Origin: a virus
IMG/VR virus record: IMGVR_UViG_3300042691_022862
Location: 1-64,000 of that record
DNA length: 64,000 nt
Strand: one strand, 5' to 3'
The notes under the pieces were generated by a model. That model was given only the letters and a program-made list of their open reading frames with translations. It ran no database searches and was not told the origin of the DNA. Positions 40,386-46,807 of this stretch are shown here, piece after piece. The position numbers and the translations under genes are program-made. The number at the start of each line of letters is the position of its first letter. The first letter of the stretch is position 1.

Positions 40386-40413
40386 ATTATAAAAAGTGGG
40401 GCGTAGGTGTCAA
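40386..40413 (-). promoter_or_regulatory. Near-consensus sigma70 promoter for ssb
   Basis: Reading the minus strand: TTGACA (40413-40408), a 16-base spacer and TATAAT (40391-40386), both hexamers perfect. The stop codon TGA of the polymerase C-part lies inside the -35 box. It would start transcription about 40 bases before the ssb ribosome site. Confidence 0.75.
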
Positions 40414-42809
40414 GTTCTAGCTACGTAAGCCTTGTCTACAATAAGGCCATCTCCGCTCTTAGACTTTGACCCCTTAACAATAATAATATTTCCGACGAAC
40501 AACAGGTTTTTGTATTCGCTATATTTTTCTGGAAAAAACACGATAGAGTCAATAGATCCCGTGGTGTCCGTCATTGTAACGAAAGCCATTTCTGCTCCAG
40601 GATTTTTACCGGTTTTGGTTTTCGTAACATTAATAAAGTCTATCTCTCCACCAAGTATAAGATTGTCTTTTTGTGTTGTGGTTTTCAGTTCTTTGCAATT
40701 AATATTAGTCATACTAATATCATACATATCAATCTTAGAACAAGTAATAGAACAACCCAGCAACACATCCTCAGAATCTGCTAACCACTCAGGACTATCG
40801 TCTAGAGAATAAGGAGGATTATTTAATGACACTATCATATCTTGGATATTGCTTTTGCGGTTTTTATTAATTCTAGGCAGTCCTAGCAGAAACTCTAGAC
40901 AGCCCTTTAAGTCTTTAAAAGAGACTAGATGCACACTGATATGCTCTATCTCTTTTTTGGTTAAGCTGCTAATTAAATTATATTCAAATAGCATCTTATT
41001 GCGAGTCATAGGCAAAAAGCTTAAAGCTCCACTTTGTATCAAAGCCTTTGCTGCTGTAGAATTAATATTGTTTAATACCAAAAATAAAAACTCTAACCAT
41101 GTTGTTTTGGTCAAGTCCATTTTAGATATTATAGATATTAGCTTATCATATACTGATTTGCCGACACCCTTAATGTCTGTTAATCCAAAATATATAGTAT
41201 TATTTTTTAAGATAAATAGCTCATTTTTGTTTCTAATATCTGGAGTTTTAACCAATACGTCCATTTCATTGGCGTTTTGAATTAACTCCTTAATTTCTGC
41301 TTGAGGATCTATTTTATCCTTAGCAAATCTTAAATATGATGCAAAAAAGATTTTGGGGAAGTGTGCTTTAGTATAGGCGGATAGATATGCATTAATAGCA
41401 TAGCTTACTGAGTGAGACTTATTGAACGAATATCTTTGACTCTTTTCGATCCAACTAAAAATCTGTTCTGCCTCATCAACTGTTACAATGCCTAGCTTTT
41501 GAGACCCCTCCAAGAACTTACTTTTGACCTTTGCCATTTCTTCCGGTTTTTTCTTACCAATAGCCTTTCTTAACATATCTGCTTCTTGCAGATTAAATCC
41601 AGCTATAGCCTTAGTTATTTCCATAGCCTGTTCTTGATATACCATTTCCCCATAGGTGTTTTGCAAAGAGTCTTTCAGAGCTTCGTGAAAATAGTCCACA
41701 GACTCTAATCCATTTTTTTTGTCTATATAATGATTAGATACTGTTTTACCATCTCTCACAGCCTCAAGACAATTATGAACTATTACATTACCAGCAATAA
41801 AATTGTGGTGGGGCGACTCCATAGATATATCATAAACCTTTTTATATCCAGTGCTAATTTTATCTATATAAGTAGCCCATTTACAGTCATCGCTATAAGA
41901 TAGTCTATATTTTTTTCTTGCTTCTATAATAGTATCTATATCAATATTACCTTCTGAATATTCTCTATGATGGTTTGGACATAAATAACAAAGATTTTCA
42001 ACATCATTATTGGTATGTCTATTTCCTTCAAGGTGATTAACATCTAAAGATCCTTTATCCCAATCACAAAAAACACATCTGTATTCATAGTTTTGATAAC
42101 ATCTTAATTTATATGATTTAATACCATCAATATTATCAATACTAATTTTTGAAGAATGTCTGGATTTAATCTTTTTCTTTAATTTTTTGGTTCCGTTTTT
42201 CTTTCTTATAACCAATATCCTCATTCCGGGCTTCATATCTTTAAGCTCTACCCATCCATTAGGAGTTAAAAGCTTATGGTCATCTGTACATTCTACTTTA
42301 TACCAATTGTATGGTAATGTATTAGTTTTTCTTTCATTAGTCTTTATCTTGATCTTGAAACATTCTTTAATACCACTATCAATAATATCTAATATTTTGT
42401 TTGAAACTAATTTTTTAGACTTTTCATCATACGATATAATTCTGTCATATTGACGATCTTTAAATAGTTTTTCTATTGAAATAGTTTTATTTCTTAAACG
42501 ACCATCGGTATGAGTATAATAGCCTACTAAGATCTTAGTATCTCCAGCAATACACCCAGGTCTCATAATACTAATCAGGGCAGAAAGCTGCTCTATGTTT
42601 TCTGGCTTTAGTTTTTTAGCCATAGACCTTCCCAGTCTAGACTCTAGCTGAAAACAACCCTTGGTATTACCGTCAGATATAAGATCCCACGTTCTTTGAC
42701 ATTCCAGATTAATATTTTCTATAGAAGAATCGAACTTTATACTCAGTCCATTATTCTGCTCTACTATATCAAAGGAACATCCACAAGGGTATTGGTATTT
42801 TTTAGACAT
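40410..42809 (-). CDS. dnaE: DNA polymerase III alpha subunit, C-terminal part, with intein
   Basis: 799 residues including a 261-residue intein (86-346). Mature sequence starts with a short CGC block, then TKGCFQLESRLG, ALISIMRPG|CLEAVRDGK (the junction), TYGEMVYQEQAMEITKAIAG, DMLRKAIGKKKPEEMAK, SQRYSFNKSHSVSYA, a tandem helix-hairpin-helix region, and a C-terminal OB fold ending near LIVDKAYVART. It is the fingers, beta-binding and OB part of a C-family polymerase. The palm and PHP parts lie in a separate gene (43672). Both parts are needed for synthesis, presumably as a complex. Its start overlaps the exonuclease gene. Confidence 0.88.
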   Translation of the reverse strand: MSKKYQYPCGCSFDIVEQNNGLSIKFDSSIENINLECQRTWDLISDGNTKGCFQLESRLGRSMAKKLKPENIEQLSALISIMRPGCIAGDTKILVGYYTHTDGRLRNKTISIEKLFKDRQYDRIISYDEKSKKLVSNKILDIIDSGIKECFKIKIKTNERKTNTLPYNWYKVECTDDHKLLTPNGWVELKDMKPGMRILVIRKKNGTKKLKKKIKSRHSSKISIDNIDGIKSYKLRCYQNYEYRCVFCDWDKGSLDVNHLEGNRHTNNDVENLCYLCPNHHREYSEGNIDIDTIIEARKKYRLSYSDDCKWATYIDKISTGYKKVYDISMESPHHNFIAGNVIVHNCLEAVRDGKTVSNHYIDKKNGLESVDYFHEALKDSLQNTYGEMVYQEQAMEITKAIAGFNLQEADMLRKAIGKKKPEEMAKVKSKFLEGSQKLGIVTVDEAEQIFSWIEKSQRYSFNKSHSVSYAINAYLSAYTKAHFPKIFFASYLRFAKDKIDPQAEIKELIQNANEMDVLVKTPDIRNKNELFILKNNTIYFGLTDIKGVGKSVYDKLISIISKMDLTKTTWLEFLFLVLNNINSTAAKALIQSGALSFLPMTRNKMLFEYNLISSLTKKEIEHISVHLVSFKDLKGCLEFLLGLPRINKNRKSNIQDMIVSLNNPPYSLDDSPEWLADSEDVLLGCSITCSKIDMYDISMTNINCKELKTTTQKDNLILGGEIDFINVTKTKTGKNPGAEMAFVTMTDTTGSIDSIVFFPEKYSEYKNLLFVGNIIIVKGSKSKSGDGLIVDKAYVART
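41772..42554 (-). other. Intein with HNH homing endonuclease in the polymerase
   Basis: 261 residues from Cys86 (CIAGDTKILV) to Asn346 (FIAGNVIVHN), followed by Cys+1. TxxH-type block B (CTDDHKLLT) and block F/G are clear. Residues about 241-283 carry CVFC ... VNHLEGNRHTNNDVENLCYL, then CPNHH: an HNH nuclease with two zinc-binding Cys pairs. Inserted in the conserved RPG motif of C-family polymerases. Standard Cys1, penultimate His and Asn chemistry implies self-splicing. Confidence 0.9.
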
Positions 42810-43503
42810 TTTCGTTCTTGGTGAAGGCGTTCTTAAACTTAATCTTTTGTCCCAAATTTCTATGTAACTTTAAAAATCTAATAATTATTTCAGCGGTATC
42901 TCTAACGTCCTTTAAGGCGTCGTGGGCACCTTCTTTGGAAATTCCGAAATAATCTCGCAAACTATCAAGAGTGTAGCTTTTTAAGTCATTATTATTTTCG
43001 AACCAATAAAAGATTAAATTCATACCATCAATAACATCTCTTGGATAAAAAATATCTGTTCGCCCTTCCTTATTTAGGTTGCCGTACTTATTACTAAGCC
43101 GATCAACAATATGAAGGTCGAATCTGTTGATATTGTATCCCGCCGCAATAGGAGCGCTAAATTGGCTTTTCTTAGAACTTCTGGAATGATATTTATCCAG
43201 ATAGTTAATAAACATCTTCCATGAGTGTTCTTGTTTTGGATATTGATGCCAAGCCTTTAAAACATCATCTTGGGAACACCCCTTAACTTTAGAGTGAAAT
43301 TCCAAAATGTCGGTTTCGTATCTATGGTCTTTGTTATTTTCTAGAACTTCTGGCTTGAAATGCATATTAAATTCTGACCCATCAATAACCTCTAATTGTA
43401 GAGGATCTATCATAAGTGCAGCAATTTGTACAGGACTGCAAACCCTAGGATCAGAACCGTCTGTTTCAAAATCAAAAACGCAAATCTTATTATAGTTGAT
43501 CAT
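42802..43503 (-). CDS. DnaQ-like 3'-5' proofreading exonuclease
   Basis: 233 residues with the DEDDh set: VFDFETDG (D11, E13), NINRFDLHIVDRL (D129) and GAHDALKDVRDT (H194, D199). This is the family of polymerase III epsilon and other proofreading exonucleases, which remove mispaired 3' ends. The gene lies between the two halves of the alpha subunit and overlaps both neighbours, so a role as the proofreading subunit of the split polymerase is well supported by position. Confidence 0.88.
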   Translation of the reverse strand: MINYNKICVFDFETDGSDPRVCSPVQIAALMIDPLQLEVIDGSEFNMHFKPEVLENNKDHRYETDILEFHSKVKGCSQDDVLKAWHQYPKQEHSWKMFINYLDKYHSRSSKKSQFSAPIAAGYNINRFDLHIVDRLSNKYGNLNKEGRTDIFYPRDVIDGMNLIFYWFENNNDLKSYTLDSLRDYFGISKEGAHDALKDVRDTAEIIIRFLKLHRNLGQKIKFKNAFTKNENV

Positions 43504-43675
43504 TTACTTCTACTTCTACATTGGGTGATAGAAACGTTGTATTCTTTTCATTTGCTGTTGCATGAGCATTGATTGATCGACAGCAGCTTACTTTTACTGT
43601 TGCAGTCTTCTTATATTCAATACCTTTGTGTGTGAATGTTTCGCCTTCTGCAATTTCTGAAAACTTCTTAATCAT
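43490..43675 (-). CDS. Small conserved phage protein in the polymerase operon
   Basis: 61 residues. FSEIAEGETFTHKGIEYKKT then TVKVSCCRSINAHATA and a beta end FLSPNVEVEVND: a compact all-beta protein I have seen repeatedly in environmental phages without a known function. It overlaps the next gene by 14 bases and the polymerase N-part by 4 (ATGA), so it is a real coding sequence, not a shadow. Confidence 0.6.
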   Translation of the reverse strand: MIKKFSEIAEGETFTHKGIEYKKTATVKVSCCRSINAHATANEKNTTFLSPNVEVEVNDQL

Positions 43676-45534
43676 ATTTCTACTCCTTCTATTAAGAGAT
43701 CTTGTATTGTCATAATCTTATCTAACATCGCTACGCCTAAAACATCAAATTTAATAATACCAATAGCTTCTAGGTCTTGCATTTCCATTCCGGCAATTAG
43801 CTGATTATTTTTACTATCAAAAACCATAGGACATAATTCGCTTAATGGCTCTGAACTAATAGCAATACCAGCCGCGTGTTTGGACTGATTAGACTTAGTT
43901 CCTTCTAATCTAATAGCCTGCTCAAACCTTTTTGCCAACGGCCCCTGTAGTTCTCCTTTGTCGTCAATATAGCACCACTCCTTGAGCTTTTCAGAATTAT
44001 TTTCTAAAGCCCAACGAATAATAGATGCCTCTCCAGTTTCTTCTTTCATTTCTTGTAGTTCATCTGCAATCTTAGCTTCATCTGGAATATTTTTAGTAAT
44101 ACGATTCATTTCTTCAAAACTAATATTACCATATACTCTTAATACGTCCTTAAGAGCACCTCTTCCCTTGATGGTGTTAAAGGTAACCATTTGAGATACT
44201 TTATCATGACTATACTTATCTTTGATATATTGAATAATTACTTCACGCTTATTAATAGGAACGTCAACATCAATATCTGGCATACTAATACGATCTTTGG
44301 TGTTTCGGCCAGAATTATAAAATCTATCAAAGAATAGGTTGTATTTGATTGGATCAATACTGGTAATACCTATTAGATATGATACCAGACATCCAGCCGC
44401 ACTTCCTCGTCCCGGTCCCGGAAGCCACCCACTTGTTCGCACATAATTTACAATATCTTGTACTATCAAAAAGTAGCTACTTAAATTCGCCCCCTGTAAA
44501 ACATCTAGTTCATATTTGATTCTATCTACATATTGTTGTTGATCGTCTTTTGGTATGATATTAGCAATTTTTTCTTTCCAGCCCTTACGACAAAGCTCTC
44601 TAAGATATTCTGCGTCATCAAAACCTTTCGGACAATCAAATGGAGGTAGTTTAGGCTTGCTTAGGATATCATATTCTTCTATAAGACTAGCCACATATTG
44701 TGTGTTTGCTATTTCTTCTTCTGTATGCAAGGCTGCCATTTCTTCTTGAGAAAGAATATGGTAATTATCTGATGTGAAAAAGCATCCCATAGGCACATCT
44801 TCGTCATTACTAATCTTACGACTAATTTCTGGAAATGTAGTTTTCAAATTGTTACAGAGCAAAATGCGCTGATCAATAGCGTCCTCTTTACGACAATAAT
44901 GTGCGTCTGGAGTACAAATAACTTTTGTATCTGTTTGCTTACCAATTTCTCTAATAGCTTTTGTAAGCTCTTTTTGTACGGTTAGATTTTCGGCATCCAT
45001 TAGTTGGGCCTCTAAAAACACACCACTAAAGTGCTTCTTAAGATCTAAAACATGATTCTTTCCTAGCTCTAGCCAGTTTGGTTTGAGTTGATAATTATCC
45101 AGAATAGTGTCAGCTAGGGTTGATCCTAGATGTCCGGTGATAGCAATTAAATTACCGTCATTTAAAGCATAGAGGCTTTTTAGGTCTAGTCTAGGCTTAT
45201 GATAATAATTCTCCGGTCTATTGGATTCTGATACTATACGAACGAGAGTTTTCCATCCATCATAGTTTTTAGACAAAATTAGAAAATGGCTTAATTCTTT
45301 ATTATGCTTTTCTTTAATGGTTGGATCATTGTCGCAAATATAAAGCTCACAACCAAGAATCGGCTTAATGCCAGCCTGTTTCATTGCCATATAAAATTTA
45401 ACAGCACCGGCAATATTACCATGATCTGTGATAGCACATGCTGTTGCTCCAATCTCTTTGCATCTTTCTGCCATTTGTTCTGGTTTAGATAGTCCATCCA
45501 AAAGTGAGAACATAGCCCACTTAGGAATGGACAT
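43672..45534 (-). CDS. dnaE: DNA polymerase III alpha subunit, N-terminal part (PHP and palm)
   Basis: 620 residues from the in-frame ATG at 45534. PHP motifs: AITDHGN (about 34-40), LGCELYI (60-66) and CTPDAHYCR (207-215). Palm: LPGPGRGSAAGCLVSY then SMPDIDVDV (metal ligands D422, D424) and IIKFDVLG (D597), after which the gene stops; fingers and OB parts are in the 40410 gene. ATG 45534 has no ribosome site and leaves out the HxH motif of PHP domains. That motif, HVHS, sits just upstream in another frame behind AAGGAG (see 45521-45562), so the functional start is probably upstream with a +1 frameshift. Confidence 0.85.
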   Translation of the reverse strand: MSIPKWAMFSLLDGLSKPEQMAERCKEIGATACAITDHGNIAGAVKFYMAMKQAGIKPILGCELYICDNDPTIKEKHNKELSHFLILSKNYDGWKTLVRIVSESNRPENYYHKPRLDLKSLYALNDGNLIAITGHLGSTLADTILDNYQLKPNWLELGKNHVLDLKKHFSGVFLEAQLMDAENLTVQKELTKAIREIGKQTDTKVICTPDAHYCRKEDAIDQRILLCNNLKTTFPEISRKISNDEDVPMGCFFTSDNYHILSQEEMAALHTEEEIANTQYVASLIEEYDILSKPKLPPFDCPKGFDDAEYLRELCRKGWKEKIANIIPKDDQQQYVDRIKYELDVLQGANLSSYFLIVQDIVNYVRTSGWLPGPGRGSAAGCLVSYLIGITSIDPIKYNLFFDRFYNSGRNTKDRISMPDIDVDVPINKREVIIQYIKDKYSHDKVSQMVTFNTIKGRGALKDVLRVYGNISFEEMNRITKNIPDEAKIADELQEMKEETGEASIIRWALENNSEKLKEWCYIDDKGELQGPLAKRFEQAIRLEGTKSNQSKHAAGIAISSEPLSELCPMVFDSKNNQLIAGMEMQDLEAIGIIKFDVLGVAMLDKIMTIQDLLIEGVEI

Positions 45535-45562
45535 GAAGCGGTATATAGTTGCTCATGTCCAT
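45521..45562 (-). other. Upstream frame encoding the missing PHP HxH motif, ending at a UAA shift site
   Basis: ATG 45562 (or 45556) encodes MDMSNYIPLHVHS and then TAA at 45523-45521. AAGGAG lies eight bases before ATG 45562, and ATG 45556 overlaps the upstream gene's stop as ATGA. LHVHS is the metal-binding PHP start of C-family polymerases, and skipping one T at TCC TAA G joins it to KWAMFSLLDG of the long frame. Either programmed +1 frameshifting or a one-base error. Confidence 0.7.
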
Positions 45563-45873
45563 CCAATTTTCTCCTTGTTGGCTACGACCTTCTCACATAA
45601 TTTAATAAATATATGTAAAGGAAAGTCTAGTTTCATTTTATTAATATCTTTTTTGACCCACCAAACATTATTTTTGACGTATCCTTTAGAACTATCAATT
45701 CTATCTAATGACCCGTCTTTGTCAAGATCAATTTCTTCGCCTGTGATGGCACACTTTTTATTCTGGGTTTCTGTATAAAGTTTCCACAAAAATTCAATGG
45801 GTATGTAGCTATTCAGCCGAGCCAGGAGCCTTGTACTTTCCAATAGTATATCCCGGAACTGTGTATTCGTCAA
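45553..45873 (-). CDS. HNH-type small endonuclease-like protein
   Basis: 106 residues with KKCAITGEEIDLDKDGSLDR then IDSSKGYVKNNVWWV and INKMK, the pattern of small phage HNH or NUMOD-type proteins (C.[IL]TG......SLDRID...GY..GN..WV). The catalytic histidines of a full HNH are not obvious, so activity is uncertain. It overlaps the RecB-like gene by 65 bases at its start, and its stop overlaps the polymerase start (ATGA). A homing nuclease placed beside the polymerase is plausible. Confidence 0.5.
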   Translation of the reverse strand: MTNTQFRDILLESTRLLARLNSYIPIEFLWKLYTETQNKKCAITGEEIDLDKDGSLDRIDSSKGYVKNNVWWVKKDINKMKLDFPLHIFIKLCEKVVANKEKIGWT

Positions 45874-46807
45874 CTACATTTTCCATCCCCTTGAGTTGAA
45901 TATCATGCTTAATTTGTTCGCACTTGGTCATTGCTGTATCAACAGAACACAACTGACCATCTCTATACTCAAGGATTGGTAGAACATGACTATTTTGAAA
46001 TGTTGTTTTACCAAAATGACAAAGCTTATTACATTTCCAAGACTTATTTAATTGAGGGACTTTAGTGCTTTTAATTGTTTCAAATTTTTGCCTAATCATA
46101 TCTTCTGTTTTGGGCAGGTCGTTCTTATCGTAGCATATGCTAAATGCTCCGCCATCATTAATGAAATTAATTGTGAATATGATATGTTCTATTTTTGGAT
46201 ACAGCTGACTTACAGCATAATGATAAATTCTTAATTGGGGGTCATTATGTAATTTTGCTAAGGTTTTTTCTTCGCCAGTTGCCCAATCTAATCTACGACC
46301 AGTTTTCCAGTCTACAATTTCAATAGTATTATCGTCAATAGAGGTAATAAGGTCAATAGTGCCTTTAATAGCCAATTGTCCTTCTAGAATTTCTCCATCA
46401 ATATTGTATTTATAATTAGCCCACGGCTTATTGATCACAATATCAAAGTGCTGCTCTGGCTGTAGTATGTTTCTCAACCTAGGGTCAAAGGATTTGTTGT
46501 GGTCTGTGATTGCTTTATAGCACCACTTGTGGCAGTCTTTAAAATCTTTAACATCCCACTCATGGTGTTTAAACTGGGACGTATAATAATCATAGACCTG
46601 TTCAATAATATGGTCTAAATTATACTTGTCAACACTAATGTCTCCAAGAATATCGTCATTATATATTTTTTGATTATTCTGTGTACATAGCTTAATATGG
46701 GCTAATATTTCTAATACCTTATGACAAATTGTGCCTTTATCGGCTTTAATTCCAGATGGCGAACGTATACCTAGGACATATTCAATAAAATACTGTTGAG
46801 GACACAT
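45809..46807 (-). CDS. PD-(D/E)XK (RecB/Cas4-like) nuclease
   Basis: 332 residues from ATG 46807. Motifs: CPQQYFIEYVLG at the start, GTICHKVLE, then GTIDLI and EIVDWKTGRRLDW (the D and E-x-K metal site), and YHYAV (the Q/Y helix). Late Cys cluster KCNKLCHFG. This is the RecB nuclease fold of phage recombination and end-processing enzymes. The conserved S.SS.....C...Y leader extends upstream in frame (LRSSSYGTHS) and could start at an AUU at 46852 with AAGGA eight bases before it; the ATG coordinate is the conservative choice. Confidence 0.75.
   Translation of the reverse strand: MCPQQYFIEYVLGIRSPSGIKADKGTICHKVLEILAHIKLCTQNNQKIYNDDILGDISVDKYNLDHIIEQVYDYYTSQFKHHEWDVKDFKDCHKWCYKAITDHNKSFDPRLRNILQPEQHFDIVINKPWANYKYNIDGEILEGQLAIKGTIDLITSIDDNTIEIVDWKTGRRLDWATGEEKTLAKLHNDPQLRIYHYAVSQLYPKIEHIIFTINFINDGGAFSICYDKNDLPKTEDMIRQKFETIKSTKVPQLNKSWKCNKLCHFGKTTFQNSHVLPILEYRDGQLCSVDTAMTKCEQIKHDIQLKGMENVVDEYTVPGYTIGKYKAPGSAE

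Follow-up and report, generated by a model that had tools for sequence, protein, structure and literature searches.

Conserved RNA folds around a break near the start of a phage DNA polymerase gene suggest that ribosomes hop over it

In the viral DNA studied here, the dnaE gene of a C-family DNA polymerase is broken by a stop codon after its first 13 codons and resumes a few nucleotides later in another frame. The break recurs in many relatives, together with a phase-independent gap, two covarying hairpins, a patchy distribution and an association with HNH endonuclease sequences. The RNA folds conserved around the break suggest that ribosomes hop over it. From sequence comparison, we consider it very probable that dnaE is read by programmed translational bypassing of the T4 gene 60 type, with a hop of 6 to 12 nt after 13 to 14 codons, and that the arrangement was brought by an HNH homing cassette. 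Below, the window means the whole stretch of DNA analysed (64,000 nt), and all window features named lie on its minus strand.

The break at the dnaE start and its distribution

A Shine-Dalgarno sequence AAGGAG (45571..45576) precedes the ATG (45560-45562) that opens ORF1 (45524..45562). ORF1 comprises dnaE codons 1-13, MDMSNYIPLHVHS, and carries the HxH motif of the PHP domain. Its last codon, UCC (Ser13, 45524..45526), is the proposed take-off codon, and the stop codon UAA (45521..45523) lies immediately 3′ of it. A polymerase ORF of 620 aa (43672-45534) in the +1 frame relative to ORF1 passes through KWAMFSLLDG; within it, ORF2 (43672..45513), the remaining N-terminal DnaE part, resumes at AUG UUC UCA CUU (MFSLLDG...). 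The profile matches of ORF2 to PHP (PF02811, E 1.3e-30) and DNA_pol3_alpha (PF07733, E 6e-73) identify a C-family DNA polymerase with a PHP domain. The first-pass annotation had described this same order of AAGGAG, ATG, ORF1 and TAA, with the polymerase one base out of frame, and we confirmed it on the minus strand. Its claim that the polymerase begins in the other frame, with HxH as part of the protein, also holds. It had further seen no ribosome site for the long frame's own ATG 45534, and by eye we likewise found nothing AGGAG-like before that codon.

Two further contigs of the window's virus (L002, L003) carry identical bases at the break, so that a sequencing slip, which the annotation had considered less likely, is very unlikely. 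Sequencing or assembly error was ruled out, as three contigs of the virus agree and many others are broken alike. A group I or group II intron or another known RNA was also ruled out, because Rfam, introns included, gave 0 matches at the gathering threshold for the window and five loci. No second dnaE was found in the virus record (76 kb, possibly a fragment), and the window holds no tRNA gene, so no suppressor tRNA was found there. The break exceeds chance on two counts: the 13 codons end in LHxHS, which stands in frame before SLLDG in 70 uninterrupted relatives (one or two of them with HxHT instead of HxHS), and the break is also present in 10 of the 80 best relatives found by the downstream protein alone.

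Viral contigs were scanned with that downstream protein, giving 245 relatives, of which the best 80 were kept; 70 have HxH in frame directly before SLLDG and 10 are interrupted by a stop, L002 and L003 being counted among the 10. The DNA pattern P-L-H-V-H-S followed by TA matched 76 stretches, 72 with this break and 4 unrelated. Further patterns added the carriers L101, L279, L111, L269, L270, L272, L274, L278, L273, L291 and L301, and their remaining new matches were unrelated. Two of these patterns gave mostly chance matches (13 stretches with 1 carrier and 9 stretches with 1 carrier), and another scan gave mostly chance among the matches listed. In total, 83 contigs are interrupted, 70 are intact and 0 are in another state or decayed; these are not frequencies, as most of the interrupted contigs were reached by patterns designed to find them and a contig is scored only if it has an SLLDG-like motif; the 10 of 80 alone were found independently of the break. 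Each contig was counted once after 14 duplicate loci had been dropped, the window, L002 and L003 were counted singly, and L226 was left out because its contig ends too early for scoring.

Comparison of homologues at the site, which the first-pass annotation had proposed as an alignment check, showed that the break recurs in relatives. By the annotation's own standard, its reading would fall if relatives had an unbroken frame and lacked a conserved shift site. This holds by half: many relatives are unbroken, but those with the break have a conserved RNA anatomy in common. We agree that recoding is the best explanation of the break; it is only the proposed mode of rejoining, a +1 shift, that fails.

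In a rapidly built tree with 113 rows, of which 58 are carriers and 55 intact genes (short or identical rows dropped; L111 and L228 are long branches), the break is patchily distributed, and the trait changed at least 9 times judged by starred branches and 18 times by parsimony. Distant relatives were also fetched: three of four have HxH in frame, and in the fourth, L307, the motif search found nothing. We found no cultured carrier, all 1356 phage-record relatives of the window's DnaE part being below 60% identity. When a 401-base stretch of L076 with the cassette was compared with phage records, a single 40-base match appeared, outside the cassette. The anatomy was also sought in genes other than dnaE: a loose scan returned 391 matches, 46 of them dnaE-like and the rest chance-like among the matches listed, while a stricter scan returned 44, namely 38 dnaE and 6 chance-like matches. 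One carrier, L301 (RFVO01000077.1, a contig of 8130 bases from a Chitinophagia MAG), has a cassette of the L006 type, and its binning with a Chitinophagia genome is a weak hint at the host.

Coding on both sides of the break and the 5′ stem-loop

We compared the coding sequence on each side of the break. PLHVHS ends ORF1 in 47 of 48 distinct leaders, a count to which one scan demanding the motif contributed and two others making no demand on P-L or Val; P, L and the first H show synonymous changes. AAGGAG, AAGGA or AGGAG precedes the ORF1 start in 47 of the 48 distinct leaders, and the codons up to and including the take-off codon number 13 in 10 of the 83 contigs and 14 in 73. Downstream, the PHP motif DHG is present in 57/57 carriers and 54/54 intact genes, and PDAHY and GCE are each present in 56/57 carriers and 54/54 intact genes. 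The S/T-H motif is rarer in carriers (50/57) than in intact genes (53/54), which counts against bypassing. Taken together, these comparisons of sequence show that coding is conserved on both sides of the break.

Conserved coding bears directly on internal initiation, by which ORF1 would be a short leader or a relic and a polymerase lacking HxH would start close to the break, at an ATG, GTG or TTG. Possible starts are not scarce: of 60 distinct carriers, 34 have a main-frame ATG or GTG at or before residue S+2, all but one of the remaining 26 have a TTG just past the break, and TAAGTG at several sites looks like a stop-start overlap. However, those 26 carriers have no ATG or GTG near the break, L076 has no ATG, GTG or TTG until residue 41, and the candidate positions vary between loci. 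The 60 loci offer 112 candidates, and an SD-like site accompanies a single one of them (a TTG in L047, beside the ORF1 site), whereas ORF1 has such a site in 47 of 48 leaders. As PLHxHS is also kept in ORF1 through synonymous changes and the remaining PHP motifs are largely conserved, we regard internal initiation as improbable across the set, though less firmly so at any one locus.

Folding and covariation place a 5′ stem-loop at 45527..45562, in which the start region AUGGACAUG pairs with CAUGUCCAU and which ends right before the take-off codon. In the window its MFE is −14.9 kcal/mol (z −5.3). In consensus form, the start sequence ATGGAC[A/G]TG is paired with CA[T/C]GTCCAT, which covers the three codons preceding the Ser codon. 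Of 333 cells in 37 equally long leaders, 97.6% are paired, partly by selection, because the P-L-H-V-H-S scan prescribed the greater part of the stem's 3′ strand; the 5′ strand was used in no collection scan. Four of the nine pairs are changed on both sides, and the covariation score was matched by 0 of 500 shuffles. Slid controls of the stem were 24-47% paired, and when leader halves were recombined among the 37 leaders, 0 of 300 folded as well as the natural ones. One pair of the stem is G-U in 13 of the 37 sequences.

The mean MFE was −17.5 kcal/mol for 44 leaders and −2.5 for 54 intact stretches; in the set of 44, the starts of L139, L205 and L210 were taken one codon early, resulting in three low outer-stem counts. 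In L111, the sole HCHS carrier, both strands of the stem are changed, and in L291, which has a GTG start, CAC stands opposite, replacing ATG facing CAT. Val is encoded by GTC in 44 of 46 distinct leaders collected by a scan without demand on the Val codon, versus 1 of 19 intact HVH genes, a preference that would follow from pairing in the 5′ stem. The start codon lies inside this stem, which should hamper initiation and counts against the bypassing reading.

HNH sequences and the gene neighbourhood

To the 5′ side of the break, the window holds a truncated HNH endonuclease ORF (45553..45873; PHROG 3322, E 1.6e-14), whose stop falls within the first codons of ORF1. The HNH stop codon is similarly placed inside the first ORF1 codons in L047, L248 and L269, and HNH is present as open frames of approximately 240 aa in L004, L047, L228, L248 and L269. 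Of the 83 carriers, 19 have HNH sequence no more than 1000 bases upstream of SLLDG, versus 2 of 70 intact genes. The carriers gave nine long matches (at least 200 aa), including the five open frames just named, and ten partial ones, three of the partial ones from the window's virus; the intact genes gave 0 long and 2 partial matches. The HNH sequences of carriers match HNH PHROGs and are at most 42% identical to annotated phage HNH endonucleases. A Pfam search gave no HNH model at E 0.01, and a search with one HNH protein reached 3 loci only. The patchy distribution of the break would fit a history in which the cassette was gained by transfer and the HNH gene was later lost, and we infer homing by an HNH cassette. 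For the mobA-gene 60 cassette of T4, the primary paper is Bonocora et al. 2011.

The neighbourhood showed several further arrangements. In L014 and L015, where dnaE is uninterrupted, an HNH remnant of about 80 aa adjoins the gene, and the remnant's stop overlaps the start of dnaE; this lineage possibly never had the gap or lost it. A PD-(D/E)XK nuclease gene (45809..46807; PF12705, E 3.5e-19) lies upstream in the window, and in L123, L208, L225 and L251 a second, different HNH gene stands just before the PD-(D/E)XK nuclease gene. DnaE itself is split in two in the window (40410-45562): the C-terminal part is a separate gene with an intein (40410..42809; PF17657 finger, PF14890 intein), and an ORF of 61 aa lies between the halves together with a gene for an RNase_T-type exonuclease. 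Rossellomorea phage phiT1 likewise has two genes annotated as alpha subunits, with a small gene between them.

The inverted repeats could also be DNA features of a homing element, such as a nuclease target, an immunity mark or mobile hairpins, with the polymerase made from two pieces or from a processed mRNA. An HNH gene or remnant adjoining 19/83 carriers against 2/70 intact genes would suit this explanation, as would the patchy distribution. On the other hand, the G-U pair in 13 of 37 5′ stems favours RNA, the stem stops at the codon before take-off, and the window and five loci have no Rfam match, introns included. We know of no precedent for a 13-residue HxH peptide acting in trans. We therefore hold an explanation by DNA features to be very improbable.

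The gap, the proposed hop and known systems

Compared with intact relatives, the gap to be skipped in the window is UAAGUGG (45517..45523), giving a displacement of 10 nt from the take-off codon to the proposed landing codon GCU (45514..45516), which comparison with relatives shows to be mostly UCN elsewhere. With the landing codon included, the extra stretch measures 7-12 nt in 42 distinct sites; in L291 it is 6 nt long. The 43 distinct sites comprise 11 of phase class 0, 14 of class 1 and 18 of class 2. In the well-supported sister pair L217/L227 (SH-aLRT 100; 75% identical over 300 residues), the gaps are 11 and 12 nt, and the longer-gapped member has one extra base pair.

No single frameshift works, because the extra DNA ranges from 6 to 12 nt and falls into all three phase classes; a frameshift in a single direction was thus ruled out. 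The first-pass annotation had proposed a programmed +1 shift at TCC TAA G. This frame is open in the window and, over the 43 distinct sites, in a total of 11; a shift of −1 or +2 would be required in 18 others and readthrough of the stop in 11, and 3, including the close relative L006, are closed to both +1 and −2. The distance from HxH to SLLDG is exactly three residues in 70/70 intact relatives, and a +1 shift in the window would add three residues to this constant spacing. A hop that leaves from the Ser codon, lands three codons ahead of the serine of SLLDG and reads on from the next codon would restore the intact spacing in every carrier, in any phase. A +1 shift is therefore hardly credible, and bypassing in T4 gene 60 offers a better comparison than RF2 or phage PSA, which the annotation had chosen.

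The take-off codon is UCN in 43/43 distinct sites; the targeted scans demanded TCY or TCN at this position, and the ten carriers among the best 80 were found without that demand. The stop directly 3′ of take-off is present in 10/10 carriers among the best 80 and in 93/93 interrupted rows, most of the latter coming from scans that required the stop. A second hairpin, AAGUGGG-CUAUGUU-CUCACUU (45502..45522), is indicated by folding and a pairing test; its 5′ arm starts inside the stop codon and pairs with the SLL codons. In the window this gap hairpin has an MFE of −5.4 (z −3.0), and 1 of 200 shuffles was equally good. Since the first MAFFT alignment splits the hairpin arms, gap pairing was tested by script and in the 11-nt class alone. 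Over 36 insert/arm combinations the mean longest helix was 5.72 versus 4.99 with shuffled arms (0/5000), and 2.19 in 53 intact genes. The helix has at least 5 pairs in 34 of the 36 combinations, L291 lying outside that set; by eye, L272 and L291 are almost without a gap hairpin. In the 11-nt class alone, the hairpin is 97.5% paired but its covariation is weak: 5 of 500 shuffles reach its covariation score, and only one pair is changed on both sides, no better than in shuffles.

The landing codon is UCN in 30 of the 43 sites and the same as the take-off codon in 12. The other 13 sites have ACU (6), GCU (4) or else GCC, UUU or UGA. At the window's GCU, no more than two positions could pair with the Ser anticodon. 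L101 and L273, the most divergent carriers, read E-Y-SLLDG after the gap with UUU and UGA as landing codons, against the Ser rule.

Returning to bypassing, the arrangement would work as follows. A ribosome initiating at AUG 45562 would open the 5′ hairpin and read 13 codons to UCC, bringing UAA into the A site, where the hairpin that starts in the stop codon would hinder the release factor. As CAUGUCCAU leaves the E site, the 5′ hairpin would re-zip behind the ribosome. Peptidyl-tRNA-Ser would detach, the mRNA would be pulled by 10 nt, and the tRNA would re-pair at the landing codon. Reading would restart at AUG UUC UCA CUU to give ...PLHVHS-MFSLLDG..., with the spacing of intact relatives. 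The strand expected to re-zip is 9 nt long, close to the displacement of 6-12 nt. Release, sliding, landing, their efficiency and the motor role of the 5′ hairpin are what we infer from these folds. The hop would give the junction peptide LHVHSMFSLLDG, and a +1 shift would give LHVHSKWAMF. As a bonus, the refolded 5′ hairpin might conceivably delay the start of the next ribosome. The gap would have come with the HNH homing-endonuclease cassette and outlived the endonuclease in most carriers.

We lean slightly towards a wider interpretation, in which the dnaE sites would form a widespread natural family of very short, mRNA-driven stop-hops. A start-codon hairpin would re-zip and pull the mRNA by 6-12 nt in any phase, a hairpin at the stop codon would block release, and no long nascent-peptide signal would be needed; the whole would travel as a homing cassette and persist after loss of the endonuclease. 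Among the matches listed in searches of an open-access library, there is no report of bypassing in dnaE and no natural family of short stop-hops in phages. The 43 distinct natural sites offer covariation, all three gap phases and the near-minimal forms L291 and L272, and they permit direct tests of which parts are needed: the 5′ stem, the gap stem, the codon match and the nascent chain.

Several known systems can be compared with the dnaE sites. The +1 frameshift of RF2 has a stop codon at its recoding site, like the proposed site in dnaE. Unlike in RF2, the gap phase varies in dnaE, so +1 cannot serve most members.

A 2016 review (PMC5009743) states that short-distance counterparts of bypassing have long been presumed and lists a few unconfirmed natural candidates; it mentions possible bypassing in the terminase of Streptomyces phage Hau3 and an unfollowed 29-nt case in Prevotella. 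In the synthetic stop-hops of Weiss et al. 1987, as described in PMC5009743, matched codons flank a stop. L291 resembles them, reading UCU UAA UCU, nine nucleotides for one amino acid; unlike them, the dnaE sites are natural, conserved and equipped with RNA structure. The byps of Magnusiomyces capitatus, 81 instances in mitochondrial mRNA that seem independent of context (PMC5009743), are also short inserts that are skipped, with take-off and landing codons sometimes unmatched. Unlike the byps, the dnaE break concerns one gene in the DNA examined and has a strong context.

According to the reviews consulted, well-established programmed bypassing in phages and bacteria rests on T4 gene 60. There, as portrayed in PMC3014915, PMC5009743 and PMC11194080, a stop follows the take-off codon, a hairpin forms in the A site, a 5′ hairpin refolding behind the ribosome acts as a motor, the landing codon is matched and an HNH gene (mobA) lies nearby. 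The dnaE sites share with this portrayal the stop right after take-off, the hairpin at the stop, the 5′ stem-loop just upstream, a gap absent in relatives and an HNH homing-endonuclease gene nearby. A landing codon matched or nearly matched to the take-off codon occurs at part of the dnaE sites, the window not among them. As in gene 60, one protein is encoded in two parts split by a stretch missing from homologues (83 versus 70 contigs). There are differences as well. Gene 60 encodes a topoisomerase, and its gap of 50 nt follows take-off after 46 codons, with KKYK about 30 residues from the P site; bypassing of its type also involves a 3′ stem-loop and an SD-like GAG before landing. Here a polymerase is concerned, with 6-12 nt after 13-14 codons. 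A long nascent-peptide signal of the T4 type cannot be present in dnaE, because only 13-14 codons lead up to take-off. Unlike in gene 60, the 5′ stem holds the start codon, landing occurs at or inside the gap hairpin, and the break is found in many lineages. For T4 it has been proposed that a homing endonuclease is paired with a gap that ribosomes can bypass; the dnaE sites suggest that such pairing is a recurring way for selfish DNA to occupy an essential gene.
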